Source of the DNA: Sergeia podlipaevii
Lineage: Eukaryota > Euglenozoa > Kinetoplastea > Trypanosomatida > Trypanosomatidae
Direction: 5' to 3'
DNA length: 64,000 nt
Assembly: GCA_030849805.1 (NCBI GenBank)
Contig: JASANZ010002242.1
Location: 34,239-98,238 of the forward strand
Shown: positions 11,156-30,925 of the stretch, piece by piece
Position numbering within the stretch: position 1 is the first letter of the stretch
Layout: every line of letters starts with the position of its first letter
The notes under the pieces: generated by a model
The model's database searches: none
The model's input: only the letters and a program-made list of their open reading frames with translations
Told to the model about the DNA's origin: nothing
Position numbers and translations under genes: made by a program

Positions 11156-11497
11156 ATGGGTAACCTCTGCTCGAAGCCTGACCCCGAGAAGATGGCCAAG
11201 GACAAGGCGAGCCAGGAGAAGCGCAGTGCAGAGCGCCAGGCCAAGACTGACACGAACAAGGAGATTGACAAGACTGCCGTGGGCGACGCGAGGCGCGATG
11301 CCCGGAAGCTGGACAACGACGTGAAGAAGGCTGAGTGCGAAGTGAAGAACGCGGAGCGCGTTGTCAACGACCCCGGGAAGGCTGCTGAGGACGAGACGAA
11401 GCGGATGGAGCGGCAGGCTGAGCGCAACGCGGAGAACAAGATCAACGCGAAAGAGAACACGGCGAAGCGTGACATGCGTAAGAGCATGGGGCTGTAG
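11156..11497 (+). CDS. Small acylated hydrophilic protein 1 (MGNLCSK)
   Basis: The protein has 113 residues and starts M-G-N-L-C-S-K. Gly2 is a predicted N-myristoylation site and Cys5 a predicted palmitoylation site. The rest is almost entirely Lys, Arg, Glu, Asp, Ala and Asn. From about residue 44 it can be cut into 11-residue units (beginning DARRDARKLDN, DVKKAECEVKN, AERVVNDPGKA), which predicts a long amphipathic or coiled-coil helix. There is no signal peptide or membrane span, so attachment would be by lipid, at the inner face of the plasma or flagellar membrane or through an unconventional route as for Leishmania HASPs. It is the first of three similar neighbours. HASP relationship is inferred from N-terminus and composition only. 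Confidence 0.85.
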   Translation: MGNLCSKPDPEKMAKDKASQEKRSAERQAKTDTNKEIDKTAVGDARRDARKLDNDVKKAECEVKNAERVVNDPGKAAEDETKRMERQAERNAENKINAKENTAKRDMRKSMGL

Positions 11498-12749
11498 AGA
11501 TGACGCTTGTCTTGGTGCCTGTGTGCACCTAACAAGGCCGAGGATGCGGTCTGTGTTGTACCCACCCCTGTTATCATTTTTTTTTTTTTTTGCTTACTGT
11601 GTGTTCATTTCTTCTTTTCACCGTGCGCGCATATTTTAAATTTTTATTTCAACCGGCTTACTGGTTACTATTTGTCTATATATTTGTGTGTGCACGTATT
11701 TTGATTCGTTGCTAAGATGTACAACCGAGTGGCGGCTCAAGTCCCGCGTTGGTGCCACATGACATTGTTTCTGTGTGCACGTGCGTGCGCGGTGCTTGCC
11801 ACAACTTGGCCGTACTTTTTGAGTGGGAGCCTATAGCTTCGGTAGCCTGGCTCTCTTGCTTACTTAGCTTCGTTACTGTGTGCATGTGTGTCCATCCTTC
11901 ATACATCCTTTATTATCATGATGGTTGTCAGCATTAGTACTATTGCTAAAATTGTGCTGTGTGCATGACAGACCGAGCAGTTTCACTCAGCACATTGTGG
12001 CACATGGTTGCGTGTGCACCATGAGCCGAATATATATTTGTTACTATATATATTTATGTGTATGCATATGTTTTATGTGTTTTGTGGTCTTTGCATTCTT
12101 ACTGACCACATTCACTATTTATTTTTTATCATTTTGTTTCTCAATTTTCACTGTAACGCATTTTTGCTGTTGTGCAACATACACTTTTGTTTCCCTCACC
12201 GTCCGCGCGCGACTGTGCGCACATGTGTGCATGCGAGTTTGCTGGGAACGATGTGCGCTATGTTACGTAGAGGGGACAGTAGTGATTGTAGGGAGAAAGT
12301 GTGTTTTATCATTTTTGAAGCAAATATGCGATTATTAGAATATATATGCTAGAGGTTCAGGTGATTCCTAAAGACTTTTTGAATTGTGTTTCATAGCGGT
12401 TACCATTCTCAGTATTATTGGTTGTTGTGATGACATTGCTGTTTTTATTTATTTATTTGTTGCTGCTCATGCCTGGTTCATTTTAGCTCTCATTTGCTAA
12501 AAACCTTTACTATCTTTTTTTTTTTGTCTTTAAAGGAATACATTTTCATTGTTTATCTACACCTGTATAGAGGTTTACTATTATCTTATATATATATATA
12601 TAGGTTTTGAGGCTGTTCCGCAAAAAGAAAGAAAAGGGTCCATCTCTACGGCATTTATATTTTTATAAAAGAAAAAAACGCTACACGTTTTATTAGTGTC
12701 TCTACTTCTTTTTTTTCTCAAAAAAAAAAAATAAGTAACTTTTGCAAAC
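11498..12749 (+). other. Intergenic region, no gene seen
   Basis: About 1.25 kb of AT-rich sequence with TG-rich stretches. The pyrimidine tract at about 12700-12719 is followed by an A-run and AG at 12734-12735, only 15 nt before the next ATG, so the predicted leader is very short. Confidence 0.5.
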
Positions 12750-13247
12750 ATGGGCAGCGGCTGCATTAAGGAAGGAGGCCAGAACGTAGAGGACGAGTTC
12801 AACAAGCAGAAGGACGCTGCCACGGAAAACTTTAACCAGCAGAAGGAAGAATTGGAGAAGAACGCCGATGCGAAGCAGCAGGAGATAGAGAAGGAGGCCA
12901 AGGATAAGCGAGCTCAGATGAACGAGGATAGCGAGCAGCGGAAGAAGGACGCCCAGAAGAAATTTGACGACATGAATGAAGAGAACAAGAAGAAGGTGGA
13001 GGAGTGGAAAAATGAAGGGGAAGAGAAGGCAGAGAACTGGAGGAAGGAGCAGGAGGCGAAGATGGACGACATGAAGGAGGACGCCGAGGCCAAGGTTGAG
13101 TCGTGGAAGAAGGATAACCAGCAGAAGCTGGATGATGTCAAGGACAAGGTGGAGGCTAAGACGGACGAATTGCAGAATTCTGCTGATGCCCGCCGTGCGG
13201 AGTTGGAGAACAATGCCCAGGACTTCGTTCAGGGAGATAGCAACTGA
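12750..13247 (+). CDS. Small acylated hendecad-repeat protein 2 (MGSGCIK)
   Basis: The protein has 165 residues and starts M-G-S-G-C-I-K, again with Gly2 and Cys5 as predicted myristoyl and palmitoyl sites. Nearly all the rest falls into 11-residue units. Consecutive examples are KFDDMNEENKK, KVEEWKNEGEE, KAENWRKEQEA, KMDDMKEDAEA, KVESWKKDNQQ and KLDDVKDKVEA, with a hydrophobic residue (V/A/M/L) at position 2 and W/M/V at position 5. One seven-residue unit interrupts the series upstream. Such hendecads form a right-handed coil or a membrane-surface helix, as in LEA proteins, apolipoproteins and synucleins. There is no sequence suggesting enzymatic function. The protein is likely membrane-tethered by lipid; partner and location are unknown. 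Confidence 0.87.
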   Translation: MGSGCIKEGGQNVEDEFNKQKDAATENFNQQKEELEKNADAKQQEIEKEAKDKRAQMNEDSEQRKKDAQKKFDDMNEENKKKVEEWKNEGEEKAENWRKEQEAKMDDMKEDAEAKVESWKKDNQQKLDDVKDKVEAKTDELQNSADARRAELENNAQDFVQGDSN

Positions 13248-15381
13248 TGAGGAAGACATTTTTTTTTTTTCATGCGCCTTTCCTAGTTGGTGTCTTTTTT
13301 TTTCTTGCCTTTTACGTTCCTGGTTTGCCTCTGCGATGATTGGACGGCGTGTAGTTGTCCCATGAGGTGGAATGTGGTTTGTTACGTACATTATGTCGTG
13401 TGTGTGTGTGTGTGCATGGTAAGATGTATGTGTCACAACTACCAGGTGTGGATATTTTTTCGTTATACATTTATGTACTACATCTGTGCTTTTGCATTCG
13501 TCAACTGTATTTTTGTCTTTCTTCTTCTTTCGATTTTTTTTTTTTCTTGTTATACTCCACTGTTGTGATGTTGGGTTGATTCACCCTTCATTGAAGAGTG
13601 AGTATGCTTTGCCTTGATGATGACGATAATGCTGAGGCAGGGACCACAGAGGTATAAGTTAGGAGCAACCTCGTCTTTCTTTTTGGCGTCCTTTTGCCCT
13701 TTCCTTTTCTCTTTCATCTTTACTGGCATGCGCATAAAACAAGTTTGATGGATGACGAAGTGGCAGGACTGCATGCATATAGCATAGTAGCCTTATGCTA
13801 GCATGCGTGAAATGGGGTTGTGACTGAGTGCTTTTTTTTTATTGTAATGTACTTTTTGTTTATATATGTATGTATCTTGTATGTTGCTGTTTTATATGCA
13901 TATGTTTTTATACACACATGCCATTCAATATCTTATGAACATATATATTTACCGCTTCCAAAAAATGCGAAGGAATGGGAAAAAGGAGGGGAATATTGTT
14001 TGCGTTCTTCTTCTCTTTTTTTTTTTGGTAGGGACTTTCCTTTTATTTACTACTATTGTTTTTGTATATACCTCGCAATTAGTTTGGAAGTGCCACTTTT
14101 TCTTTTTTATAGTGAAGCTACAACTTTTGTTGTAGTATTGCTTTCTTAAAAAAAAATTATTTTTTTTGTAATAATGCGTGGTACTTTATTCTGACTACTT
14201 GCGTGCGTCATCATCTCTGCTCGAAGAGTTTGCTCTCAGTAAGACAAGTTGCAGAGGTAGTGTGGTGCGCACATGTATCTTTTTTTCTTCTTTTTGTATT
14301 TTCTTTTTTCTTTTTGTTTTTTACGTCCGGCAAAAAATAGTGGAATGCGTTCGTGAAGATTGGGGAAGGGGAAAACAAAGAAAGAAGAAAAATAATAATA
14401 ATAAAAAAGATGAGAGACGCGTGGATAGATCGAATGAAAAATAATAATAGAAAATGATGCAACTATATACCGGAGATTGAAAGATAAATGTGGGAATGAG
14501 AGACAGAGACAGAGAAAGGTATTCCTGACGTTGTAAAAAGGACGACATTGTCAGCTCAATACAAAAATGATATGACGGTGTGTCTATATATATATATATA
14601 TATTACTGGCTGCTCGTGCACTCAGTTTGTGATGACACATTTCTTTTTTTTTTTTGTTTGTTTGTTTGGTTATTATTGTATCTTGTTGTTGTTTTTTTTA
14701 CCTTTTTTTTTGCAGCTCTCTAGTAGATTCGCAGCTTTTTTTTTTTTTGTTGTTGTTGTGATGTTTTTGCGGGTACGCTTAAAAAAAGGAAAATTATATG
14801 GCGGGAAATAGCAATATATATATCAAATAAAGTACTGAAAAAAAAAAGAAAAGGCATCTGAATACTTTTTTGTTTTCCTATATAGATATATGTATCTTTT
14901 TTTTTTTTTAAACACCCCTTTAAATGAATTATCAACTAATATGCCAGTTGGTAGGAAGTGAGCATCTTTTTTTTTTTTTGTCATGCTCAACGAAGCCAGT
15001 TGGCCATGCCTTTTTTTCTTCTTCCCAATTTATCAACTTTGGAATGAAGAAAAGAGACCTTACAAATTTAATGCTCCTTTTCTTAAACTTCTTTCTCTTT
15101 ATATTTCAATACTATCTTCTGTCTTCATATATATATATTGTATGACAGAATAAGATCTATTGCGTTTTCTGCATTCAAAGATTCCTATCTATTTTAAAAA
15201 GAAAGGAAAAAGTTCTTTTTAAAAGCAATCGAGTTCAATCAACCCACAGACAGATAGAAAGGACCCCCTTCCCTCTATCAATACACCTACACTCAAGCCC
15301 ACTCACTTTTTACCGTTTTCTTTTAAAAATAAATAAGTTATCACACCGCTTTCAACCTTTCTCTCTCTCTCTCTCGCAATC
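13248..15381 (+). other. 2.1-kb intergenic region, no gene seen
   Basis: AT-rich sequence with many T-runs and short TA microsatellites (for example about 14586-14603). I see no credible coding frame or structured RNA. A pyrimidine tract at about 15305-15324 followed by AG at 15336-15337 is the candidate acceptor, 45 nt before the next ATG; a (CT)n run at about 15358-15375 lies inside the predicted leader. Confidence 0.5.
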
Positions 15382-15720
15382 ATGGGCGGCGACTGTTCCA
15401 AGGAAGAAAATCAAACCCGCAACGACAAGACCAAGAAGGACATCAAGAACGCGGAGGATGACCTACGGAAAAAAGAACAGAACGCCGAGAAGAAGATGAA
15501 CGCCAAGAAGGACGAGATCAAGAAGGACATAAACGAAAAGAAGGACGAGATCAAGAAGGACATAAACGAAAAGAAGGATGAGATGAAGAAGGACATGGGC
15601 GCCAAGAAGGATGAGATGAAGAAGGACATGGACGCCAAGAAGGACGAGATGAAGAAGGACATCGACGCCAAGAAGGACGAGATGAAGGAAGACATCGACG
15701 CCAAGAAGGACCACGAGTAG
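15382..15720 (+). CDS. Small acylated hendecad-repeat protein 3 (MGGDCSK)
   Basis: The protein has 112 residues and starts M-G-G-D-C-S-K, with predicted Gly2 myristoylation and Cys5 palmitoylation. Residues 42-107 are six nearly perfect 11-residue repeats of the form KKDEMKKDMDA (early copies KKDEIKKDINE), and a seventh, truncated copy ends the protein. The repeat puts I/M at positions 5 and 9 on a background of Lys and Asp/Glu, giving a narrow hydrophobic stripe on a strongly charged helix. It is the most repetitive and probably the youngest member of the three-gene cluster. Function is unknown; a lipid-anchored surface helix or spacer is inferred. Confidence 0.85.
   Translation: MGGDCSKEENQTRNDKTKKDIKNAEDDLRKKEQNAEKKMNAKKDEIKKDINEKKDEIKKDINEKKDEMKKDMGAKKDEMKKDMDAKKDEMKKDIDAKKDEMKEDIDAKKDHE
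15505..15702 (+). repeat. 33-bp tandem repeat, six copies
   Basis: Six contiguous in-frame 33-base units encode the KKDE(I/M)KKD hendecads. Adjacent copies differ by only a few bases, so copy number may vary between strains. Confidence 0.93.
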
Positions 15721-18700
15721 TGGATTATTCCAGGTCAAAGTGAAATGATGATTGTTAAAAAAAAAACCTAATAAAACGCAAATGTTTGAAGGAGTAACGA
15801 GAGGGAGCGGGACAGTGAGCGCTCTTTTAGGATAGGGGATAGAAAGGCACACACACACACACGCACACGCACGTGGAGCAAGATTTTTTTCTTAAAATAG
15901 GAAGGGTTGATATAGCGCGGTAATTTTTGAATTGAAGCAAATAATAATCATCAGCTATCTTCTCTTTTTTTTTTTTTTACACAACAGTAACAACTGTTCT
16001 TCTATCCTCTATCCCTAGTCAATTTTTTATTGACATTTTTTTCTCTTGCTTCTTTAGTCACAAACACATTCAGGAAAAAAAATGCAAAAACGGTATTCCT
16101 ATTATGTTTTTTTTTTTTTTACATCTCATTTTACTTTCTCCTCCTCCCCTCATTTTTTTTTTTTGTTGGCTTTGATGACACCATTTTTTTTTCTTTTTTA
16201 CTGGTATCGACATCTTCAAAGCGAACTGCGACACAGTATCGTACTGATCCAGTACATGAAAGTGTTGCCGTCAACAGGAAGGCTTCGCCAACTTTTTTTT
16301 TCACGTTGATGTGACGTTTGTACGTGTGTTTGAATTAAAATGATTCTCTCCTCTATTTTTTTTTTTTTTTTTACAAAAGAAAGTTATTATCGCAAACCTG
16401 TGTTGTGCTCTCTCTCCTTCTACTCTTCACTGATTAAAGCTACACATATAAAATGCCGTTCTTTGCTGTGAGGAGGGAGTCGCTTCCCTCAAAAAAGAAA
16501 AAAAAACGATGCAGAGGGAAGCAAGCGGGAGCGGACGAAAGAAGGAGGGGGAGAAAACATCTCACCACATCCTCACTCACTGTTTCTATTTCTTTTTTTT
16601 TTCTTCTTTTTTTTTTGCCCTTTGTGAGGAGCTCTACGTATATGAGCAGGTGGTTAAGAATAGAACGTTTGAAGGATAGGATGGCGGTGGGATAGGGTGG
16701 AGGACTTGTGGGAGATAGTGGATATATATACACAGCATAATAGCCATACAGATACGTACGCGATGTCGTGGTGAGTGAGTTTTTTTTTCTTTTCGTTTCT
16801 ACAGAAATTGTCATTATATATACATGCCTTTTCTAAAATTTGTTTCATATGCGCATTTGAATACTTGATTTACCCAAAGGGTTGAAAAGAAAAACAACAG
16901 AGAAAAAAAGCACAATTTTATTTTCTATTACACCCCGTTTTTTTTTGTTGTTGCTTTGTTGTTTAGTTGGAAATGACTGTCTTTTTTTTCATTTGTTTAT
17001 CAAGAAAGGACTGAAAGCATTTCTATAAATATGTTTTCTTGATACTGTTTGTCTTCAACTAGTCATCAATTTTTTTTTTCTTTTTGTTAGAGTAGCTTTT
17101 GGCTAAGAATGGCAGATCGTGTGCGTCTTTGTCATCCTAGCATTACTCCCTCCCTCCATTTAAAAAGAAAATATACGCTTAGCAAATTTAGAATTTTTTA
17201 AAGTAAATATGATGACCAGTATATATTTCTCTCTCTTTTTTTTTTTTTTTTAAGCCAATAAGCGGCATACAGCTATGGCAAAGATCTATGATGTGTCTGG
17301 AAAGAAGGAAAGAAAGAAAACAAATCAATAACGAGGTAGGGAGGAGGGGGAGAAAAAAAAGGGGAAAGAGTGCTAGCAAGCGATGTGAAATGGAGCTCAC
17401 AGAGGCCATAGCACAGGTGATTTCTGTCATCTGTGTTGGTGATTGCAATGAGTGTCATTTATATACGCAAATACACATTCGTTGTCGCTTTACCCTTTGG
17501 AATTGAAAACTCAAGGACCCATTTCTCTCTCTCTCTCTCTTTAAAAAAAAATTTCTTTTGCAATGAGGATGCCTCTGCTACTGGCCCTCTTTTCGTTTTT
17601 TTTTCCTGTACTTGCGTCTACAGTTAGCTAGTTCGCAAATTTTTTTTTGTGATTCTACGTACGTTTTTTTTATACATATTATTTCTATTTAAATGAGAAA
17701 AAAGCCAAAACAAAGGCATCTACAGCATTTGTTGAGAGGTAAATAATGCAGTAGTGCTGATTTTAAACATACGTTATGACATGGCTTACCACTATTGGGT
17801 TACAAACATATATATATTCGTATTTTATATAAGGATAGTGCGTATACAAATCGTATTGTGTGAGCTTCTTCTTTATATATCTATGTTCTTTTTTTTTTTA
17901 TGGGGATATAAAAGTAAATAAATATGCACACATATTTTTGCTTTTTTGCAGCTGACTTTGTCTTTTCTGACTTAGGACTGTATTTCTGTTTGTGCTTCAG
18001 AGCTCTTGATTTTCACCGCTGAGCATCTGCATACATTTAAGTCCTCATTATCTTTTTGCTTCTACTTTAGAATCTGTGTTTTTCTCTTTTTTCTAAACCC
18101 CTTTTGCCAGTCTGCTTTTATTTTGTCTCTTTTTTTAGTTCTTAGCAGTTAAGGAGAGCTACTCTCTCTTTCTCTCCAACCTTTTTTTTTTTCTTATTCC
18201 TTGCCTCTTTTTTGTTGTCCCACTTTCTTCCTTTGCCTTACCACGACGAAAGAGACGGTACGTATTGGAAGCACAGAAGTAAAATAGAGATAGAGAAGGG
18301 GAGAGAGAGAGAATAAAAAGGAGGGAACTATATTAGGTCGAGGTGTATAAACTGGCGGCTTCACTTACGTTTGAAGCACTGCTTTTTTTTTTCTGCCCCT
18401 CCCTTTTTTTTTTTTGGCAAGCAGAAATACTGAAGGGCATTAAGTGTCTCTTCGTCCTTTTTCTTTTCTAAATATACATTTTTTTTACCCCTTAGAAAAA
18501 AAAAAAGAAACCTCTTCGACGGCAAGGGCTGACGAATTGTGAAAAGAAAGCAAATTTTAAAGGTTGAACTTAGGAGAAGGAGCAAGAAGAAAGAGAACAC
18601 ACATTATTTTTCTCTCTCTCTCCCCCCTTTCTTTTCCACAGTTCTTTCTATATATAGATATAGATATATATAGATATATATATTTCTTTCTTTTGAATAG

Positions 18701-18931
18701 TAAGTTATTATCGGATATATTCTGGGTTCTCTACCACTCCCAAAACCCAGCACCTACACAAATTATCAAAGCGACGTGCCGTCTTTGTTTAAGGAGAGTA
18801 GCATTGGTGGACTTTCTGCTCTTCTCTAATTTATCATCTTTTTTTTTTTTTTTTCTACAGAGAGGTGATATATCGAAGGATCAGCAACAAAATACACGCA
18901 CACACACACACACACACACAAGCAAGGGAAG
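15721..18931 (+). other. 3.2-kb gene-free gap with strong splice acceptor at its end
   Basis: The longest gap in the window. It is AT-rich with many poly-T runs, a few GA-rich stretches and TA repeats. Short open frames translate to simple sequence. No tRNA, rRNA or convincing snoRNA signature was seen. Just before the next gene, a long T tract (about 18837-18856) ends in ctacag with AG at 18859-18860, the clearest trans-splice acceptor in the window. An (AC)n run at about 18897-18921 lies in the predicted 72-nt leader. Confidence 0.6.
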
Positions 18932-21900
18932 ATGAGCACCAATCAGGGAAGTGCGAATGCCTCCACAAGTGCTAGTGAAAAGGCCTGGCGTGCACTTTCA
19001 CTGCATTCTACATTGGCTACCACACTGGACGCCACCGCCGTGCGCCAGCCCCCCACGGCACTCCTGACCCGCGTGCTAACACGAACGTGCATGGACTATG
19101 CGGATGTGCTGGTAGACGCTCGGTGCGCCACAGGAAGTGAGACTCAAGGTACCGCAGCTGCTATCTGGCTCCACAGCAATGCATCCATGAGCAATCATCA
19201 CACCAGCGGCGGCGGTGCAGGGGATGCTGGTACTCAGACAGCAGCAAGTACTGCTGGCACTTCTGCCTCTACCATTGGAGCGGCAGTCATTTCCGCTGCT
19301 GACGAGCCTCCGCCGTTGTACATGACCCCTGCAGCTCGACAAGAAAGACGTGCCTTGATGGCTCTATACGCGGTACAGTGTCTTCTTGTGGCGGGCGATA
19401 CAATCCCTGCGCTGCAGCGGTCCCATGAGGTGGCGCTTGCGATTGCGAGCGAAGAGCCCGGAGCGTGTGAGGAGCTTGAGGCGGCATTCAAGCTCATTGC
19501 GGGGTTGTGCGGCGTGGATGTCATTGTAGTTTCAGTCGGTATGCAGCCAGGGGCTGCAGTGACCAAGCGGTACGCGGAGCAGCAGCTCAGCGCCACCAAT
19601 GCTGTGGATGATCTAGATGGAAAAGGAAAGAAGCCCTCTAGCACTAATACCACTGCTACCGCTGCTGCTGCTGCTGCTGCTACAGGGTGGGGTGCCCTCA
19701 AGCGCAAGACTGTGTTCATCACCACTTACCAAGGATTACGCAGTTGGGATCGAAGACTGTTTCTTACCTCCCCACTTTCTGCTTCCTCTTCTTCTGTTGC
19801 CGCTGCTACTAGCGGGACGGACAACAACAACAACAAAAGCGAGACCAAGTCGCCTCCCACACTGCGGAATGCAACCATCGAAGGGTCTGCTTCAGAGGAC
19901 GCATCTTCCACCCCGACGGCCACTGCGAGCGCGACGACGAGTGCTGCTCCGTCCACTGAAGCCGCCGCCGCCAAAACTGGGGTTATCCCTCACGTCGCTG
20001 TAGTGGTAGCAGAGGACGTGGGCGAGGTGAAGCCATCCGATGAACAGGAGTGGGATAGCATTATTGCCGATGTGCTCTTCACTGTGGAGCGGGTGCACAG
20101 TTCATACCCCTCTGCCATGCATCGCACCCCGCACCTGATGTGGCTCTGCCTCGGGCCTCTCGCGGCCTTATCACCTCGTATTCGCACTCGCTTGGACCGA
20201 CGCTCACGCCGCTTTTACCCACTTCTGCCGAGTAACTACCTTCCCGCCGCGACTGCTTCTCTGGCGCGCACCGGGCCCGGCACATCTGCTCCACTGGACA
20301 GCACCCGCATGGTATACCTACTCTATCGGGACGAGAAGGACAAGGAGGAGCAGCTGCGGGCGGTGCTAAGCACCACGCAGGCCTTTGAACGTGTGCTTGT
20401 CATGACGCACAGTAAAGACATTCGCCACGTGTATGCGGTGATACAGGGCTGGGGGATATACAACAGCAAAGAAAACATGTTTTTTTCACAGCGGTCGGAC
20501 TCCGCGGAAAAGCAGACCTCGCTCATCTACAACAGCTGCTCTAAGAAGCCATTGTCGCAACCGCCGCAGCAGCAGGGCCGGAAGGGAGACAGCAGCAGCA
20601 GCGAGGGCAGTGGTAACGAAAGCAACGAGCGCCGCCAAGTACTGGTGGTTGGTTGGGATGCTTTCACTGCGATGGATGTGATGGACGTTGACCTCATTGT
20701 TCAGTACCACCCCCCGCAGAAGTCCCTGACGGAGCGCGAGTGGAGTGACTTCATTCAAGTGCTCCACACTACCGCAGACGCGGAAGTGGAGATAGAGGCT
20801 TCTCTCCGAGGCAATCCCAACAACACGACAAACAACATTAACTTGAAGCTTAGCCAACTGCGTCGTGGCTTGAGCATTGCTGGGCGTCGCTACGTGGCCA
20901 ACGGTGGAGGCCATCACAGCGGCACTGGCGCGCTTCGACGTCCGACAGTGATCACTATGATGGGCGCTCTTGACTACGCACTCACCGCGTACTTCATGCA
21001 GCAGTATCTGTACAGCGGCTCTACAGGCTCGCCTTCCCGACTTGCACTGACGGCCTCGCTCGCCGCCGTCACGCAGGCCACCTCGTCCAACGCAGATATG
21101 CCTGTTGTGCCCTCTAGCAACCCTTCTATGGCTCCCATTCTGGACATTGCCGCCTCACACCCGTTGTTTGATGTACTCGTCACGGGCTCAGAGGAGCCTC
21201 TTGCGCTACCCCTCGCCACCTCTCCCACGTCATTCTTGAAGGCTGGCGCTGTCTCATCGACGGCGAAGCCAGACGCTACGACAAAGGACCCCGCCATCGT
21301 TGCGGTCGTGGCAGACCGGCACGTGCCATCGACGGCCCTGTGTGGACTCTCTCACCCAATTAGCATTAAGGAAGTACTCAAGGCGAAGCTGCGCAAGGAG
21401 CAGCGTGCGCAGCTGCAGAGCGGCTTTGGCAGCGGGAACAAATCTAATGCGCTCGGCTCGCAAGGCTTTTTGATTTCGTGCGTAGCAGGCAGTAAGCACT
21501 TGTCGGGTGGCAACACGAGCGGAGAGAAGGGGAGCTCGTCAGCATCCGCGGGGGTCAACGCACGCACATCAATGAGCGCGCCACCGGCCTCGAGCACGAC
21601 ATCCACTGCAGGGAATAGAATAAGCAGCAATAACAATAGCAGTGCCAATACTAGAGGTGGTGGCAGTGGTGGTAGCGGTGGTGGTAGCGGTGGTGGTAGC
21701 GGTGGTGGTAGCGGTGGTGGTAGCGGTGGCGGACAAGCCAGCAAGAATGCTGGGGGCAAGAAGAACTCTGGTGGCAATCACGGCGGCGGCAGCAGCGTCA
21801 ACAACAACAACAACAGCTCGAATGCCAAGGGAGGAGTCGGTTGTGGCAGCGGTAACGCACCGAGCTCCTCGCCCGCGCCGAGCAGCGGGTCCGGCAACAA

Positions 21901-22147
21901 CGCTCGTAGTAGCCCATCCTCTCAGCAACATAGTAGCAAGCAGGGTGGTAATGCGACAAGTTTGGGCGATGCGGGTGGCGGCTCTGGGAAGCATCAAGGC
22001 GGTGGCAAGCAGCGCCATCGTGGTGGCAATAGTGGCAATAATAACAACAATAGTAGTAGTAGCGGAGGCGGTGGCAGGAAAGGAGGAGGCAGTGGGGGTG
22101 GAAATGCAAGTGGCGGGGGCACTGTAAAGGGCCAAGCGTCGAAGTAG
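18932..22147 (+). CDS. Degenerate DEAD-box helicase-like protein with Gly/Ser-rich tail
   Basis: The protein has 1071 residues. Residues ~30-700 follow the DEAD-box layout, but each catalytic motif is altered. The Q-motif position reads PPTALL (about 40-45). The P-loop region reads CATGSETQGT (65-74) instead of A-x-T-G-S-G-K-T, so the ATP-binding lysine is missing. Motif II reads VVVAEDV (A360-V363) in place of DEAD. Motif III is LCLGPL in place of SAT. The second RecA-like domain is recognisable by RVLVMTHSKD and by GWDAFTAMDVMDVDLIVQYHPP (GWDAFTAMD at 574-582), but motif V and the HRxGR of motif VI are lost. The last ~300 residues are Gly/Ser/Asn-rich. It probably binds RNA or a partner without ATPase activity. 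Confidence 0.72.
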   Translation: MSTNQGSANASTSASEKAWRALSLHSTLATTLDATAVRQPPTALLTRVLTRTCMDYADVLVDARCATGSETQGTAAAIWLHSNASMSNHHTSGGGAGDAGTQTAASTAGTSASTIGAAVISAADEPPPLYMTPAARQERRALMALYAVQCLLVAGDTIPALQRSHEVALAIASEEPGACEELEAAFKLIAGLCGVDVIVVSVGMQPGAAVTKRYAEQQLSATNAVDDLDGKGKKPSSTNTTATAAAAAAATGWGALKRKTVFITTYQGLRSWDRRLFLTSPLSASSSSVAAATSGTDNNNNKSETKSPPTLRNATIEGSASEDASSTPTATASATTSAAPSTEAAAAKTGVIPHVAVVVAEDVGEVKPSDEQEWDSIIADVLFTVERVHSSYPSAMHRTPHLMWLCLGPLAALSPRIRTRLDRRSRRFYPLLPSNYLPAATASLARTGPGTSAPLDSTRMVYLLYRDEKDKEEQLRAVLSTTQAFERVLVMTHSKDIRHVYAVIQGWGIYNSKENMFFSQRSDSAEKQTSLIYNSCSKKPLSQPPQQQGRKGDSSSSEGSGNESNERRQVLVVGWDAFTAMDVMDVDLIVQYHPPQKSLTEREWSDFIQVLHTTADAEVEIEASLRGNPNNTTNNINLKLSQLRRGLSIAGRRYVANGGGHHSGTGALRRPTVITMMGALDYALTAYFMQQYLYSGSTGSPSRLALTASLAAVTQATSSNADMPVVPSSNPSMAPILDIAASHPLFDVLVTGSEEPLALPLATSPTSFLKAGAVSSTAKPDATTKDPAIVAVVADRHVPSTALCGLSHPISIKEVLKAKLRKEQRAQLQSGFGSGNKSNALGSQGFLISCVAGSKHLSGGNTSGEKGSSSASAGVNARTSMSAPPASSTTSTAGNRISSNNNSSANTRGGGSGGSGGGSGGGSGGGSGGGSGGGQASKNAGGKKNSGGNHGGGSSVNNNNNSSNAKGGVGCGSGNAPSSSPAPSSGSGNNARSSPSSQQHSSKQGGNATSLGDAGGGSGKHQGGGKQRHRGGNSGNNNNNSSSSGGGGRKGGGSGGGNASGGGTVKGQASK
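21656..21733 (+). repeat. GGT/AGC repeat encoding (GGGS)n
   Basis: An in-frame run encodes GGGSGGS followed by repeated GGGS units, forming a flexible linker within the Gly/Ser-rich tail. The near-identical 12-base units suggest slippage expansion. Confidence 0.9.
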
Positions 22148-23199: not shown

Positions 23200-23904
23200 A
23201 TGACTTCAAGCACTGCGCGTGCCGCTGACAATCACGGCACTCTTGTCGTTAAGATCAAGCGTGCGCTGGATACATATGAATCCGCAAGCAAGAAGTACCT
23301 CTCCGCGGTCAAGGACCTGGAAACCTCCATGGAGGGTATCGCCATTGCCTTCAGGGAGCTAGCTCAGGGCGAGCGCACAGACGTCGCTCGACAGCTCTCC
23401 GATCGCTTCTGCACTGCTCTTGACACGCACAAGAATGCCAAAGGGAATGAGAAGAGCCAGTCTAATCCTTCGTCCTCGTCCGTCGTACCACCTGAGCAGT
23501 ATTACTTCTCTACGTACATGAGCGAGTTGTCGTCGCAGATGACGGCGGCAATGGCGGAGCTGAAGGCGGATTTAAAGAAAACGGACAGCAGTCGTGAGAA
23601 ACGCGACAAGTCCATCAAGAGTTATCAGAAGTACCACAAGAAGGTAGATGAGAAGGAGTCCAAACTTGCCAAGAAGAACCGTGGCGTTGCTGAAGATCCG
23701 TCTTATGCCAAGCTGATCAAGGAGCGAGACGTGAAGAAGGCGGAGTCAGAGGCGGATGAGAAGGCGTTTGAAGATGCATATGAGAAGTTGCTACAGAAGC
23801 GAACGGCGACGCTCATCAAGGTGTTGAACGCGCTGGGCTCCTCTTCCTCTAAGTATTACACGGGGATTGCATCTATTATGTACCAGGGTGTTCCAACTAA
23901 ATAG
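23200..23904 (+). CDS. BAR-domain-like helical protein 1
   Basis: The protein has 234 residues, the size of a single BAR domain, and is predicted almost all alpha-helical. The order of elements fits a BAR fold. A first helix contains YLSAVKDLETSMEGIAIAF. A linker is rich in N and S. A second long helix contains YMSELSSQMTAAMAELKADL and the charged SYQKYHKKVDEKESKLAKK. A short break at EDPSYAKL is followed by a third helix containing AFEDAYEKLLQKRTATLIKVL and a YY-containing end. BAR domains dimerise and bind or bend membranes. The break motif (D-P-x-Y) and the FxxAYE segment also occur in the protein at 30083. There is no N-terminal acylation signal. The assignment is from helix pattern, not an alignment search. 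Confidence 0.68.
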   Translation: MTSSTARAADNHGTLVVKIKRALDTYESASKKYLSAVKDLETSMEGIAIAFRELAQGERTDVARQLSDRFCTALDTHKNAKGNEKSQSNPSSSSVVPPEQYYFSTYMSELSSQMTAAMAELKADLKKTDSSREKRDKSIKSYQKYHKKVDEKESKLAKKNRGVAEDPSYAKLIKERDVKKAESEADEKAFEDAYEKLLQKRTATLIKVLNALGSSSSKYYTGIASIMYQGVPTK

Positions 23905-25871
23905 TTAACGTACTCATTTCTTTTTATTATTATTCTTGTGTACGCATTAGGGTAAAACAGTGTATATGCTTGTGTGAGATGAGAGTTGACAAAAGGAAAG
24001 ATGGAGAAAAAAATATGCGAGAGGGAGAGAGAAGTGAGTTATTGGGCATTTTTTTTTTTTTTTTGTAGAGATACGTTACGTACGCAGGCGCAGAGGGAAG
24101 AAGCAGAGGGGGGTTATAGAGAGGAAGACAGGGCAGGAAGGAAAGGAAGGACGAGGAAGGGAACAGTTTGCTTTTCTATTTTTTTTTTAATTTTTTTTTT
24201 TTACATTGGTTTTTGGTGCGCTCTGAGCGTGCGTGTGCTGCTTACTGGCATGATTTAGGTAGTAAACTCTCTATTTCTTTCTCTCTCTCCACCCCTTTTT
24301 TCTTCACTACACACGCAAACATATACATATATATGTATATATGCTGCTTTTCTATCATTTCAATGATCGTGCAGAAACTGCCAGCTCATGTTGTTTTATT
24401 ATTATTATTATTATTATTTATATTTGTATTGACTTTGTTCATTTTTTTCTATCTATTTTTTATAAAGAGTGCGAGTGCACAAAGGAACATTTTGAACAAC
24501 ACAAAAAAAAGCAAAGACAACAGTAGGGACTGATGCTCACTTGATATATATTTTGATAAGCACACTAGCGATTTTCATATATATGTCGAGAGTGGAAGTC
24601 AAGCAGCTGCACCGGTAAAGAAAAAAACATACATACGTCAAATGCAAAACAGTCACGGATGTGCGCATGGAAAAGGACGAAAATAAAGATCAAAAACTCG
24701 GCAGCTTTTCCCCTCCTTCTTTCTCTTTTCCTTTATTACTTGTGGACAGATGGGTCCCTGTTATTGATTATGATACTTTTTTTTGTTTTCTTGTATTGAT
24801 GTTATTCCTGATGGTTTATCACTCGTTTTTCCTTTTATCATTTCTTTATTTTTTATTCTTTGGATGGTTTATCATGAGAACAAACTGTGCTTTTTTTTGT
24901 TTTGTCTTTCCTCCTGCTTTTTTTTCTGCGTGCACGTACGTGCTTGGGCGTATTGATACGAAACAAACTGTATTCTCTGTTGTGTTTGAGTATGACTGAA
25001 AGAGTTTAGAAATTGCATTCCCTATTTCTGTAAGAAGCACCACCTTTAAACCAACAAAAAATAACTATAGGAGGCTCATACACACACATATATATATGTA
25101 TATTTATTTTCAAGAACATAGGTAGTTCCTACTATCTGCGCATTCCAGGCAAACTTTGTGTTAATCAACTGTGCTTCTCATCGTCAAGAGATGAGTTGTG
25201 CGTTGTACACAGTTGACTGAACTTTGTGACTTTAACCCCCCCTTTTTTTTTCTTTCTTTTCTTTCTCATCTCTTTTAGTCATTGTACTTTAAGACGATCC
25301 GGCTTTAGATTCTCAGTATTATTATTATTATTATTGTTATTACTATTTCAAATTTTTTTTTGTTTTTTTGCGAGCAATCATAGCAGATCGATTACACATA
25401 ATCAACGTTAGCACATCTATTTAGCTTTTTTGAAAGCTTATTTTTTATTTTTTTTTATTGTACTTTGATTGCAAATCAAAAGAATTATCTTTGCAATTTA
25501 CTTTTTGTTTTTTTTTTCTTTCTAGTAATTGCCTCCCTTTTATTATTAATATTTTTATAGTATTATTACTTTACGAGAGAGAGAGAGAGAGAGAGAGAGA
25601 AAAGCAGAAAAGTCACGTTGCAGCACTGTTGCAGCTGACTAGATATATAAGCACCCACCTACGGACAGTCGGTTCTTTTTTTTTTCTTCCGTTCTTTAAT
25701 TACTTTTTTTTTTTCCCTTTGCGGACTTGAGATTGCTTTATTATTATTATTATTATTGTACTGTATTGAAATAGATTTTATCTATTGTACTTCCAGCTTA
25801 TTGTACTCGCAGTCATTACGACTTGCAAAGCATACAAACACACAAAAAATCAAACTAACGAAAAGGAAACA
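23905..25871 (+). other. 2-kb intergenic region with ATT repeats
   Basis: No gene is seen. (TTA)n runs lie at about 24397-24419, 25316-25333 and 25738-25757, and a (GA)n run at about 25575-25601. A T-rich tract at about 25703-25717 and AG at 25795-25796 are the candidate acceptor for the next gene. Upstream in-frame codons before the ATG at 25872 lie at or before this acceptor, so they are treated as non-coding. Confidence 0.55.
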
Positions 25872-28652
25872 ATGCTGAGTGGTGATCGTAGCCCTTCACC
25901 ATGTAGCAGCAACTATGACTTTACACTCCGTCATGAGCGTGTGAAGCTCTTCACACAAGTGCTTAAGAAGTTTGATACTCACATCTCGCGCACCTCTCAA
26001 GCAGTGCGAGAGCTCATCACTTGCTTTGCACTCGTGGGACAGAGTTATCATGAGGTGTCACTATGTGTTAACAACACGAATCCAAACAGCACGGTGAACA
26101 GGAGTTATAACATCAGCTATAACAACCGACTCGTGGAGAACTATGGCGCGGACTTGCAGTACGCAGCAAAGATGTTCTCCAACGAGCTCACTAAGGTGCG
26201 TGATGGCCAGGCGTACACGGACTACAACACCAGCGTACACAAGAACATTTTTTCTCGTCTGCACAGCGTGATGGAGCAGTCGAAGAAGGTCTGCAGTGCT
26301 GGTGATGCTGTCGCGCACGCCCTCAAGAAGCACACACACGCGCGCACTTTGGCAGAGAAGAAGGAGGCCAAGTATGAGCGTCTTGAGCGGCCGCTTACAG
26401 AGAGCAAGCGCTACCCCAAGCAGTCCGCGGAGCGTGATGCCACGGAGAAGGTGTACTTGGCGAAGCTAACCTTCTTTAACCAAGAGTACGAGACACTCAT
26501 GCAGCGCCACCTCTATGTCACCGGGCACACAGTGGACGACTTCCTCGACCTCAACTTCTCCTACATGACACAGCTGATGCAGGTACTTGGCTGCCTCGCT
26601 CCACACGGCGCGGACACGATGGAGGCGATGATTGTGCACGGTAACGATCTTGGCAAGAAGATGGGACTCTCCTCTGACGCACTTCTCGGTAGTAAGGTGC
26701 GCAGGATGCCGGTGTGCGCCAGTGGAGGTTGTGAAAAGGGCGATGCAGCGCCTGACGATCACTCCTCCCGCATCCTCCGCTCTGCACACAACTTCACGAA
26801 TTACTACGGCAATCGTACGGATGATGATGGCGTCGAGGATGGCCCACGCACTGCACGTGATTGCCGTGCCGTGTCCGGCGCCCCCATCTCTGCTGCTGGC
26901 TCCCTGCCCATGGCGGACTCTGAGGAGCCACAGCCAGTGCCCCCGGTGCCGTCGCTTCAGCAGGAGGGAGCCACAGCGGCCATTAAGAGCGGTGCTCCAG
27001 CGGCGTGCACGCCGCTTAGTGCTGCTCCTTCCGCTGCTGGTAATCCTCTTGCAGGACTGAAAACAACGCCAGCTAATCCTATGACGCCTTCATCTACGGC
27101 TGCTGTGACTCCAGCAGGCACCGCAGTGCCACCAGAGATGTCTACCCGCATTAAGCAGGTTCCACCCGCAGCATCGGCTGCTGCCCCAGAGCCAGCTAGC
27201 GACAAGGGGAAGAAACCAGTGTTAGATCAGAAGGCGATCACGCCTGCTGCTTATTTTGCTCCAGTGTCTACTGCAGCTGTGGCGACGACCACCGCAGCCC
27301 CTGACTTGGCGAAGCCTTCAACGACGCCGTCAGCAGCTGCAGCAGCGGCACAGAAGCTCAAGTCGGCCACAGCTGGACGCCGCGCCACTACTGATTTGGC
27401 CAAGACCAAGTCGGCAGCGGCGTCCAAGCCATTACAACAGCAGCAGCAGGCGAGCGGGAACGGCAGTGCGGCAGTTGGCACCCCAACTAGCGGCAGGTCT
27501 GCTATACAGCACACGACGGCCACTACCAACGCCAAGCCGTTTGCGCAGGGGCGCCGAACGGCACCTGTCAAATCTCCACGTACAGCGACACAGAAGGTTC
27601 CTGCTGCTGCTGCTGCTCAGGTGGCAGCGGTGGTGCCTCAGACACTGCCGAGGGAGGAGAACAACGCCTCCTTTGGCGCTGGATGCACTCCCGCCTTCGA
27701 TAAGACTCGTCCGTCCTCTACATCGCCCAGCGCCGAGGCTGCCTTCAAGGAGAAGTGCCGTCCCAGTTCAGTAGTAACTGAGAGCTTTGGTGTTGCGAAG
27801 AAGCAACAGCCACACCCACACTCACATCAGCAGCAACAACTGCAGAAGAAACAGCAGCAGCAGTTCAAGAAGAACAACGAGATGGGTGAGCCAAAGCCTA
27901 GCATGGCTGCCGCTCAGCAGCAGGAACAGCAACCATTGCCTAGCTCACAGTACGTCAGGGCAAAGTCGCGTGAGCCGATCGATGACGAGGACGCCGCTAC
28001 TGACTTGGAGATGACAGTGTCCGCCATGACTGCGTCACGCATGACTACAGTTAGTTCTCGCCCCAACCACATCATTGGTAAGGCAGGTGACGCTCGCGCT
28101 CTGCCGCTAAGCCACTTTGTAGATCCCGCCGCTGCTGCAGTCACACCACCTTCGCCTGCCTCCAACGGCTCAGTAGTGTCCGCTAGCAGTATGCCTGGCT
28201 TCCGTGCCATGCCGTCCGCACCTCCTCAGGAAACTGCTAGTGAAATCGATGAATTGAATTCAACAATACCAAGCGGTGACGACGTGAGTGGCGTTCCTAC
28301 TGCCGCCACCTCGATGGCCTTGCAAGATGACCCCTTGAATGGATCGAGCGGCGCGGAGTATCAGCCCAGACTGACGGTGCCTTCTATCCTGCACGCACCA
28401 GGGCAACGTGGCGGTGCTGGCAATGGCCGCAGGAGTGGCGTCAGGCTTTCTGTGAGCTTCGCCAGTATGAGCCATCTGAAGGAAGGACGCAGCAAGCAGG
28501 GAGACGAGGAGGAAGACACGTGCGACGAGGACCACAGCTCCAACGCGATGACGCCAGAGACGAACGGACCCATGGCTTCACCACCCAACGGGGATACATG
28601 CATGAATCCATGGGATAGAGATAATGAGCACGAGTACTCCGTGGAGCGCTAA
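25872..28652 (+). CDS. BAR-like protein 2 with long disordered C-terminal tail
   Basis: The protein has 926 residues. Residues ~20-290 are helical and resemble the neighbouring BAR-like proteins: a first helix with FTQVLKKFDTHISR, then VGQSYHEVSLCVN (55-67), which matches VGKSYTQVTACLN of the protein at 30083, a central helix around MFSNELTKVRDGQAY, and a Lys-rich helix with a FFNQEYETLMQRH segment followed by DDFLDLNFSYMTQL. The remaining ~630 residues are low-complexity (Ala, Pro, Ser, Thr, Gln) and probably disordered, a common place for SH3-type or kinase interactions. Unlike the protein at 30083 it lacks an M-G-x-x-C start. The role is inferred as membrane binding with a scaffolding tail. 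Confidence 0.7.
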   Translation: MLSGDRSPSPCSSNYDFTLRHERVKLFTQVLKKFDTHISRTSQAVRELITCFALVGQSYHEVSLCVNNTNPNSTVNRSYNISYNNRLVENYGADLQYAAKMFSNELTKVRDGQAYTDYNTSVHKNIFSRLHSVMEQSKKVCSAGDAVAHALKKHTHARTLAEKKEAKYERLERPLTESKRYPKQSAERDATEKVYLAKLTFFNQEYETLMQRHLYVTGHTVDDFLDLNFSYMTQLMQVLGCLAPHGADTMEAMIVHGNDLGKKMGLSSDALLGSKVRRMPVCASGGCEKGDAAPDDHSSRILRSAHNFTNYYGNRTDDDGVEDGPRTARDCRAVSGAPISAAGSLPMADSEEPQPVPPVPSLQQEGATAAIKSGAPAACTPLSAAPSAAGNPLAGLKTTPANPMTPSSTAAVTPAGTAVPPEMSTRIKQVPPAASAAAPEPASDKGKKPVLDQKAITPAAYFAPVSTAAVATTTAAPDLAKPSTTPSAAAAAAQKLKSATAGRRATTDLAKTKSAAASKPLQQQQQASGNGSAAVGTPTSGRSAIQHTTATTNAKPFAQGRRTAPVKSPRTATQKVPAAAAAQVAAVVPQTLPREENNASFGAGCTPAFDKTRPSSTSPSAEAAFKEKCRPSSVVTESFGVAKKQQPHPHSHQQQQLQKKQQQQFKKNNEMGEPKPSMAAAQQQEQQPLPSSQYVRAKSREPIDDEDAATDLEMTVSAMTASRMTTVSSRPNHIIGKAGDARALPLSHFVDPAAAAVTPPSPASNGSVVSASSMPGFRAMPSAPPQETASEIDELNSTIPSGDDVSGVPTAATSMALQDDPLNGSSGAEYQPRLTVPSILHAPGQRGGAGNGRRSGVRLSVSFASMSHLKEGRSKQGDEEEDTCDEDHSSNAMTPETNGPMASPPNGDTCMNPWDRDNEHEYSVER

Positions 28653-30082
28653 GAGGAAAAAAAGGAAGAAGGGAAATAGTTACATTTACTTCAACGCTGC
28701 TTTATGCTGCAGCAAGGAAGCATTAGTGTTTTTGATTTTTTTTTGTTTTGAATGCATTTGAGCATGATTGAAGATCACAACGCAGCGTTGTGTTCATTCA
28801 TTACCAGTGTATATTTACCCAGCACAATACTTAATTTATTTATATTAAAATGTATGTATGCATGGCTATGCGCACGCATGTAGACTTTTTTTTTCTCATT
28901 TATATGAGAGAAAAATGCACGCTGAGCCCCACATAGCTTAGCAAGCCTTAGCAAAATGTACTTGTGTTTTAGAGATATGAGTACTAGAAAGGGGAAAAAA
29001 GAATGTTAATATTTTATGCACAGGCAAGCAAACAAACAGCGCGATAACACACACAGATGGGGTTTTCCTTTTTCTTTCTAAACTATTGCGATTTCTACTG
29101 TTAGATTCACATGCACGCACGTTAGGAGTGTATATATATAACTTTGTCCTTCATTTTGGAGAGATAAAAAAAAAAAAAGCAAAATAAAAACAATAACAAA
29201 AAAAAATGAGAAAAAAAAACGGAAGAGCCACTGAAATGAACTACTACAATTTTTTTTTTGATCGTGTTCATGCACGAAAGGTTTTTTTTTTTTTTTTTAG
29301 ACAAGACAACAGCAGCACTTTTTCTCCCTTGTATTTTTCGTTCTTTTTTTTTTTTTTACGTATGTTTGTACCTCAATTTGATCGCTAATTTTCAAAATAT
29401 TTTTTTTTGCGTGGTAATATATAGTTTCCTTTTTTTTTTTGTGGATTCTTAGGTATCGCATACATCAATTAGAAAATGAAGGAGAGAAAAGCGCGCGCGC
29501 GAGCGAGAGAGAGAGAGAGACAGGGAGAAGGTGAGGCGGTAGAGGTCCATGCGTGAATATACATGTGTGTGTATGTACATATTTATACCTAGATTTAAAG
29601 AAATTAACAGAGGGAAAGAGCGCGTGCTAGGTACCTCTTTACTTTATATAAAATTGTATAATATGCACCTGTAAAGTTTTTGCTCCGCGTGATTTACCTA
29701 TATATATATATATATGATGATGATATCTTGTACCTCGCGTGTTAAATTCACAACCAATCAACCCACAACAATTATGTTATAGCAGCATTTGTGCTGAGTC
29801 TTTTTGACCTCCAGAAGCAGGTGGCTACAATATCTTCCTTGGCGGGTCTTGTCGGCATTATAAAAAGGGGGAGGGGGGCTGTCATATCTATATATCTAAG
29901 CAAACCACTATTGTGATAGTATCGCCTTTCTTATCATTATAAGTATCTTCTTGTTTTTCTCTTTTTTCATCCATCTATATTTTTCCTGTTTTGGAAACGC
30001 CTTTTTGATTTTCATTCTAAAAAAAAAGAAGATTTATTCATAAAATAAATACATTCATTGCTTAACTTTTATCGTTGTAAGG
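28653..30082 (+). other. 1.4-kb intergenic region, no gene seen
   Basis: T-rich and A-rich simple sequence with a (TA)n run at about 29699-29715 and a GA-rich stretch near 29505-29520. A pyrimidine-rich region at about 29950-30018 and AG at 30027-30028 form the candidate acceptor, 55 nt before the next ATG. Confidence 0.5.
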
Positions 30083-30925
30083 ATGGGAGCACTTTGCACG
30101 AAGGAGACGGTGAAGAAGGTTAACGAGCAGAACCCCGAGCTTGTGTACAGGGTCATGAATCTTAAGTCTCTGCGCACTAGTCTCACTGCTCTGTACACTA
30201 GTATTGTGGAGGCGGAGCTGGCGATGCAGAGCATGGCAAATAAAATGACAAATGTGGGGAAGTCTTATACACAGGTCACGGCTTGTCTCAATCATGGCGA
30301 CGTAGGCAACCTCAACTTAACTCGAGAGGCGGCTCTGGACAGCGCTACGGCGACATCGAAGGGGGAGCCTGCTAGCTCTCTTATTGGTAGCACGAGGCGC
30401 ACACGCATCAACCGGGAGGAGGCCAAGTCTAACTACGAGTCTGCCCAGTCTTTTACAAACTCAATGAACACGCTCAAGACAGATGAGTACCGCACGTATA
30501 AGGAACGTGTAGACAAGGACGTACAGGAAAAAATTATGGCCGTTATTACAAAGATTGACGTTGCGTTGCCATTGGGCAAAAAGGCCGGTGAAGCTATCGC
30601 GGCCCAGTCCGCGGCGGCGGCCGAGGTGGAGAAGATTGAGAACCGTGCGGCGATCACGGGCAAGGACGTGACGACAGACCCCAAGTACTCGCCAGCATTG
30701 GCGAAGAGAGAAAGGGCCATCAAGGGTGTGGAGACGTCATTGCAGAAGTTTGACTCTGCCTATGAGGAGGTCATGCCAGAGGCGCAGGTGATGGTGCAGG
30801 AGTCGATGGACTTCTTTTTGGATCCCACGGTGGACTTTACCAAGGCGTTGTTAACCTCTATTGATCGCGTTGGACCTATGAGTACGACCAAGCGTAAGGC
30901 ACCTGCAAGCAATGAGAAGGAGTAA
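30083..30925 (+). CDS. Acylated BAR-like protein 3 (MGALCTK)
   Basis: The protein has 280 residues and starts M-G-A-L-C-T-K, giving Gly2 and Cys5 as predicted myristoyl and palmitoyl sites, as in the three small proteins at 11-16 kb. The body is helical and BAR-like. The first helix holds SLRTSLTALYTSIVEAELAM and the VGKSYTQVTACLN segment (58-70). A central helix contains RTYKERVDKDVQEKIMAVI. A break at TTDPKYSPAL is followed by SLQKFDSAYEEVMPEAQ and a terminal helix DFFLDPTVDFTKALL. The short C-terminus is basic (TKRKAPASNEKE). It combines features of both protein groups in the region, so it is the best single candidate for a link between them. Membrane recruitment by lipid plus curvature sensing is inferred. 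Confidence 0.78.
   Translation: MGALCTKETVKKVNEQNPELVYRVMNLKSLRTSLTALYTSIVEAELAMQSMANKMTNVGKSYTQVTACLNHGDVGNLNLTREAALDSATATSKGEPASSLIGSTRRTRINREEAKSNYESAQSFTNSMNTLKTDEYRTYKERVDKDVQEKIMAVITKIDVALPLGKKAGEAIAAQSAAAAEVEKIENRAAITGKDVTTDPKYSPALAKRERAIKGVETSLQKFDSAYEEVMPEAQVMVQESMDFFLDPTVDFTKALLTSIDRVGPMSTTKRKAPASNEKE

Follow-up and report, generated by a model that had tools for sequence, protein, structure and literature searches.

A locus of less than 20 kb in the trypanosomatid Sergeia podlipaevii combines three genes for small proteins that begin with a predicted double-acylation signal (ac1, ac2 and ac3) with three genes for divergent members of the BAR family (bar1, bar2 and bar3). The locus is located in positions 34239 to 98238 of contig C543, a stretch of 64,000 nucleotides to which we refer as the window (the genome comprises 23.4 Mb in 576 contigs); unless another contig or locus is named, positions are those of the window. 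We consider it probable that the locus encodes helical rods with acyl anchors together with BAR proteins of the flabarin family, both residing on the inner side of a membrane, be it that of the flagellum, the flagellar pocket or the cell surface. Translation of the open reading frames (ORFs) showed that all seven genes of the cluster are intact, and all of them are on the + strand between positions 11156 and 30925:

11156..11497, + strand: ac1, 113 aa, start MGNLCSK; coding score 0.39 in frame
12750..13247, + strand: ac2, 165 aa, start MGSGCIK; coding score 0.38
15382..15720, + strand: ac3, 112 aa, start MGGDCSK; coding score 0.41
18932..22147, + strand: ORF of 1071 aa, located between the ac and bar groups
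23200..23904, + strand: bar1, 234 aa, BAR family, no MG start
25872..28652, + strand: bar2, 926 aa (98 kDa), BAR-family N-terminal region and long tail
30083..30925, + strand: bar3, 280 aa, BAR family, start MGALCTK

A preliminary description of this DNA had reported such a cluster within 20 kb, and the coding scores of the intact ORFs bear it out. With a codon-usage score trained on six other genes of the window, the seven genes obtained values of 0.17 to 0.41 in their own frames, and -0.36 to 0.14 in the other five. Between positions 9991 and 31980, the gaps contain 20 further ORFs that reach 70 aa or more, none of which shows coding bias (scores of -0.20 to 0.03), and the intergenic gaps are AT-rich (GC 0.32 to 0.38). 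Stretches of 30 nucleotides containing 25 to 30 pyrimidines are present at most 400 nt upstream of all eight genes examined, as expected for trans-spliced genes; for ac3, no AG was found between the tract and the ATG. We noticed no published account of the cluster among the open-access papers listed by our searches, of which we read the titles and the opening lines of the abstracts.

Four of the seven proteins, ac1, ac2, ac3 and bar3, start with the motif MGxxCxK. The preliminary description had recognised an M-G-x-x-C start in the three small proteins; this holds for all three, and the count was one short, bar3 having the same start. The DNA pattern encoding MGxxCxK is found at 38 sites in the genome, against 27 for a reversed control, and four of the 38 are located at this locus, within 18.9 kb and on one strand. 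When 38 points were placed randomly on a line of the length of the genome, four points as close as these were obtained in none of 20,000 runs. All of the remaining 34 sites were translated, and at three of them an ORF of 100 aa or more begins; genome-wide, four of the seven ORFs of at least this size that begin with MGxxCxK are present in this stretch. We conclude that the motif cluster is genuine and statistically exceptional. In ac1, ac2 and ac3, all of which have Gly2 and Cys5, the start is expected to act as a double-acylation signal, with myristoylation on Gly2 and palmitoylation on Cys5. By carrying the N-terminal motif of the small proteins, bar3 would form a bridge between the two groups, which strengthens the earlier proposal that both belong to a membrane-associated set.

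The preliminary description had also attributed 11-residue amphipathic repeats to the three small proteins. These are strong in ac3 and ac2 and weak in ac1, with z values for the lag-11 identity autocorrelation of 12.9, 5.2 and 0.9, respectively. The hydrophobic moment at the hendecad angle was matched by none of 20,000 shuffled sequences for ac2, by none of 20,000 for ac3, and by 89 of 20,000 for ac1. The hendecad repeats, which are regular in ac3 and degenerate in ac2, generate a continuous hydrophobic stripe in both proteins, and that of ac2 includes Trp. Protein ac1 is weakly amphipathic, its 11-mer repeat is not clear, and K, R, E and D make up 47% of it. In ac3, a 33-bp tandem repeat (15500..15711, + strand; 6.4 copies, 92% matches) encodes the 11-residue units, and because the protein repeat is also a repeat of the DNA, the copy number may still change. 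An antisense ORF of 229 aa overlapping ac2 (12702-13391) was rejected as the complement of a repeat; the coding score on its strand is at most 0.10, against 0.38 for ac2.

Direct alignment of ac2 and ac3 started at residue 1 and gave 33% identity over 115 columns (E 1e-8, as a single comparison). When used to search the genome from which they come, ac2 and ac3 each matched itself alone (E≤0.001; E≤0.01). Because of these self-only matches and the biased composition of the proteins, we grade the kinship no higher than probable: ac2 and ac3 are probably related. Protein ac1 shows no similarity to ac2, and its search of the genome also returned itself alone. In a protein collection that includes proteins of Phytomonas, Strigomonas, Angomonas, Novymonas and Trypanosoma, no relative of ac2 was found at E≤1e-5 among 69 candidates, which were preselected by a word filter that misses distant relatives. 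None of the three small proteins contains a Pfam domain over its cut-off. The Apolipoprotein family (PF01442; curated cut-off 90 bits) scored 33.6 bits for ac2 and 24.6 bits for ac3 and did not match ac1, and the best PDB matches of ac2 (1.8e-4) and ac3 (7e-4) are apolipoproteins. Membership of this family was rejected, the scores being far under the Pfam cut-off, and we read the matches as shared periodicity.

Used as queries against the genome, bar1, bar2 and bar3 pointed to loci on contigs C236, C385 and C573, from which six further family members outside the window were collected. The C573 protein (L031:4721-5572, start MACTK) passes the Pfam BAR family PF03114 (33.1 bits, cut-off 28.5), and it was matched directly by bar1 (4.1e-4) and bar2 (8.0e-4); the search with bar3 gave no direct match to it. 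The other eight of the nine family members, including bar1, bar2 and bar3, are not over the Pfam BAR cut-off, and the three window proteins have no PF03114 row at all. The C385 locus (L030:4068-9028) contains four BAR-family genes in tandem on the - strand, and so the family is larger than the window shows.

We then built a profile from the six paralogues outside the window and searched with it the 84 ORFs of the window and the 30 kb upstream. For this purpose, the C236 protein was trimmed to residues 1-300. The searches had matched only two of the four C385 genes; the other two, which adjoin them, were chosen by eye, and one C385 gene encoding 190 aa with an atypical end (L030:7020-7592) was kept as it is. 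The weaker matches on C352 (E 0.106) and C499 (E 0.279) were excluded. The profile matched bar2 (4.7e-24), bar1 (1e-22) and bar3 (1.8e-19), and the next ORF had an E-value of 0.026. The scores of the three proteins are 62.5 to 81.2 bits, whereas shuffled copies obtained at most 7.7 bits. Within the family, identity to bar3 is 13 to 20%. By the alignment, the BAR-family region of bar2 spans approximately its residues 25-265, and it is followed by a tail of about 650 residues in which, by eye, Pro, Ala, Ser, Thr and Gln are abundant.

The predicted models of bar1 and bar3 show an elongated three-helix bundle resembling arfaptin and FAM92A, at modest confidence. Foldseek searches with the two models gave BAR-type proteins in 45 and 46 of the 50 matches listed, none with an E-value below 0.001. 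Absence of a BAR fold, named in the preliminary description as the finding that would speak against it, was thus not what the models of bar1 and bar3 suggest, and its three BAR-like proteins stand, all three by the family profile and the two modelled ones by fold resemblance. A PDB search with a profile of the nine-row BAR alignment returned 40 matches, most of them to designed coiled coils or to helices of viral spike or fusion proteins and none to a BAR protein. In the protein collection, 1965 candidates preselected by the same word filter included no match to bar3 at E≤1. Taken together, the sequence comparisons support the assignment of bar1, bar2 and bar3 as divergent BAR-family members.

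The ORF between the two groups (18932-22147) had been described as a degenerate helicase-like gene, a label that the Pfam, NCBIfam and PDB sequence searches do not support. The whole protein matched no Pfam family at E≤1, and the NCBIfam and PDB matches of residues 1-843 include no helicase. The end of the protein is rich in Gly, Ser and Asn, and its coding sequence there includes a 12-bp tandem repeat.

At the membrane, ac1, ac2 and ac3, which are small and very hydrophilic, would be anchored by lipids, myristate on Gly2 and palmitate on Cys5. We infer that the charged hendecad helix lies on the membrane or projects from it, either singly or in a coiled coil; with a rise of 0.15 nm per residue, a straight helix would be about 16 nm long for ac3 and about 24 nm for ac2. 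The BAR-family proteins would bind and support curved membrane, bar3 by means of the same double lipid anchor. An alternative for ac2 and ac3, which we judge to be evenly balanced, is that they are single-helix or coiled-coil spacers that tie the membrane to another structure, the acyl chains alone touching the membrane. Their low mean hydrophobicity (-0.24 and -0.37), their 49% and 64% of K, R, E or D, and Apolipoprotein scores so far under the cut-off would suit such spacers. The continuous hydrophobic stripe, which exceeded all 20,000 shuffles, argues for contact with the membrane, although a coiled coil would give the same stripe.

Both ingredients of the membrane-shaping or membrane-coating set that was originally proposed, the double-acylation signal and the BAR family, are thus present, and the step that goes beyond them is the claim of a single set. 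Joint function is plausible because the genes are adjacent and share one motif, and we regard joint action of the ac and bar proteins as a reasonable hypothesis whose chances are at best about even. Several points weigh against it. Gene order in trypanosomatids carries little functional information, and the genes are arranged in long units of unrelated genes. With ac1, ac2 and ac3 the six-paralogue profile gave scores below zero and no match. Furthermore, the closest relative of bar2 is on another contig, C236 (E 2.9e-16), and a tree of the nine BAR-family proteins does not group bar1, bar2 and bar3, with weak support. Two cautions concern the motif cluster: the Lys was added to the MGxxCxK pattern after inspection of the proteins that share it, and a second pattern (MGxxC followed by TC) occurs 66 times in the genome, against 37 for its control, with only two of these sites in this stretch. 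The profile, for its part, shows one family and is not an independent discovery, because the window proteins themselves led to the six paralogues; this circularity slightly lowers our confidence in the reading of the locus as a set of inner-face membrane proteins.

It could just as well be, in our estimate, that the genes are accidental neighbours, that is, old divergent BAR-family genes and unrelated acylated repeat proteins, each working elsewhere. The relative of bar2 on C236, the weakly supported tree, the failure of the profile to match the small proteins and the general arrangement of trypanosomatid genes in long units of unrelated genes all agree with this; the rare MGxxCxK start that bar3 has in common with the three small genes speaks against it. 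Such accidental proximity denies joint action alone and is compatible with acylated rods and BAR proteins at the membrane.

A further alternative, which we find doubtful, would see in the ac trio the equivalent of the HASP/SHERP (LmcDNA16) or oHASP locus of Leishmania, a single chromosomal site encoding proteins that are variable, repeat-bearing and dual-acylated. For the chromosomal position, the following gene of the window serves as anchor in comparisons with T. brucei and L. major:

37653..39341, + strand: M17 leucyl aminopeptidase (LAP)

A glycosyl hydrolase family 32 (GH32) gene of the sucrase/invertase type is present at 61501-63327 (PF00251, E 1.6e-95). In L. major, a second anchor is presumably the GH32 gene of the sucrase type numbered near LmjF.23.0870, which lies beyond LAP. 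The only DUF1899 gene found in the genome, which we take to be of the coronin type, is on contig C239 and not on the window contig. Because of this location, gene order differs somewhere from that of Leishmania, where coronin is LmjF.23.1165 (Tb927.8.3100 in T. brucei; PMC7581878), and it is not proven that the same side of LAP is concerned. The window LAP is basic (pI 9.31), and the other two LAPs of the genome have pI values of 5.95 and 6.62. L. major has an acidic, a neutral and a basic LAP, the basic one being LmjF.23.0950 (pI 9.5), the orthologue of Tb927.8.3060 (excerpts of PMC11184559). The L. major HASP and SHERP genes are LmjF.23.1040 to 1088 (PMC5380837), and nine numbering steps of ten separate LmjF.23.0950 from the first of them; six ORFs of at least 200 aa are located between LAP and ac3, a similar distance. 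The basic LAP and this spacing favour a HASP counterpart, as do Gly2 and Cys5, which oHASPs also have, and the 33-nt repeats of ac3, which may be set against oHASP repeats of 30 nt coding 10-residue hydrophilic units (PMC2946902). Besides the displaced coronin-type gene, Herpetomonas muscarum, reported in part of the text of PMC6872171 to be without HASP orthologues, argues against it, and the likeness to HASP is one of description.

The region upstream of LAP provides one lead for a location at the flagellar pocket. A gene for a glycosyl hydrolase 47 (GH47; L033:2534-4477) begins about 45 kb upstream of LAP on the same contig, and we assume it to be the counterpart of the T. brucei EDEM genes, which are Tb927.8.2910-2940 (PMC2797082). 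Tb927.8.3010, whose link with our locus is its gene number between the EDEM and LAP genes only, belongs to the hook complex and has three predicted coiled coils and a mass of 82 kDa, compared with 98 kDa for bar2; excerpts of PMC4695855 list it for two species, T. brucei and T. cruzi, and not for Leishmania. LmxM.23.1020, which by number is near HASP, is a flagellar membrane protein whose deletion had no clear effect in sand flies, according to part of PMC6615630. The widest proposal is that of an ancient trypanosomatid membrane-coat locus, with flabarin-type BAR genes and lipid-anchored rods lining the pocket neck or flagellar membrane, from which Leishmania HASP/SHERP and Tb927.8.3010 would descend, so that the HASP locus, which is known in Leishmania for a role tied to particular stages, would have started out as genes that shape flagellar membrane, at a time before vertebrates were parasitised; we consider this improbable. 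Even less credit is due to the idea that bar1, bar2 and bar3 are no more than long helical bundles resembling BAR domains, in view of the homology of bar1 and bar2 to a protein over the Pfam BAR cut-off, the six-paralogue profile and the predominance of BAR-type proteins among the fold matches listed.

Outside the locus, MGxxCxK also starts an ORF of at least 701 aa that runs past the end of the fetched stretch L068, an ORF of 182 aa in L065 that we judged doubtful, and a 701-aa MGACCGK protein encoded on the - strand in L069 (contig C379). The L069 frame has another ATG, 61 codons upstream, and a start there would mask the acylation motif. By its motifs, the L069 protein resembles a phosphoinositide phospholipase C. 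Two genes between the BAR genes and LAP (31980-36502) encode proteins of 471 and 677 aa; the first matched no family, and the second has a hydrophobic N-terminus and an Fn3_assoc match slightly above the cut-off (24.5 bits, cut-off 23). At 280-1173, a protein ends in long GRGGRGDS-type repeats that by eye are like the RGG tails of RNA-binding proteins; it matched no Pfam family at E≤0.01. Upstream of the window, the C543 stretches L033, L034 and L071 encode the GH47 mannosidase and a DUF229 protein; the products of neighbouring genes resemble, by eye, stealth-like transferases, a cysteine peptidase of the papain type and additional members of DUF229. In a one-gene tree, from which three short proteins of 45 (P0043-P0045) were excluded, the NDUFAF7-type protein encoded at 58776 groups with those of Phytomonas, Strigomonas and Angomonas, apart from Novymonas (support 94/87, slightly short of the level that the program marks with a star).

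The locus adds three further BAR-family genes, one of them with a double-acylation signal, and adjoining genes for acylated hendecad proteins as named candidates for studies of how trypanosomatids shape their flagellar and pocket membrane. If the HASP/SHERP counterpart were real, the origin of Leishmania proteins that are required in the sand fly would become testable through relatives that live in insects only.

Among known systems, SMP-1 and the calflagins (FCaBP) contain domains, whereas ac1, ac2 and ac3 have no Pfam domain over the cut-off. The likeness is in the N-terminal double-acylation signal, which SMP-1 and the calflagins, proteins of the flagellar membrane (PMC3785460), have in common with the three small proteins. 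The flabarins are the nearest described family to bar1, bar2 and bar3. Like LdFlabarin and its L. major orthologue LmjF.27.1730, TbFlabarin (Tb927.11.2410) and TbFlabarinL (Tb927.11.2400), the window proteins are BAR/arfaptin-like helical proteins. Flabarins have 222-340 aa and N-terminal acylation sites that were proposed or shown to be important for flagellar location. LdFlabarin, a flagellar BAR protein, has a palmitoylable site and, in the excerpted text of PMC3785460, no myristoylation site, and the recombinant protein binds liposomes and forms tubules (PMC3785460; PMC5078803). TbFlabarin requires two N-terminal cysteines for its flagellar location, and for TbFlabarinL a myristoylated Gly and a palmitoylated Cys, with lysines, were proposed (both PMC5078803). 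The MGALCTK start of bar3, with its Gly2, fits the description of TbFlabarinL and differs from LdFlabarin as described in that excerpt. Unlike flabarins, bar1 and bar2 lack a Cys among residues 1-10, and bar2 has its long tail. The flabarin counterpart in this genome, set beside the flabarins by description, is likely to be the C573 protein rather than a gene of the window.

Proteins ac2 and ac3 have an amphipathic period of 11 residues, like the 11-mer lipid-binding helices of apolipoproteins A-I and A-IV; unlike these, they have no proline after residue 7 and have a predicted acyl anchor. With the HASP and oHASP genes of Leishmania (the LmcDNA16 and OHL loci), the ac genes share Gly2 and Cys5, the presence of several genes at one site and hydrophilic tandem repeats, a repeat domain that is clear in ac3, degenerate in ac2 and not clear in ac1. 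Compared by description, the repeats of the ac proteins differ from those of HASP and oHASP in being 11-residue units of helix type, rich in K, E and D.

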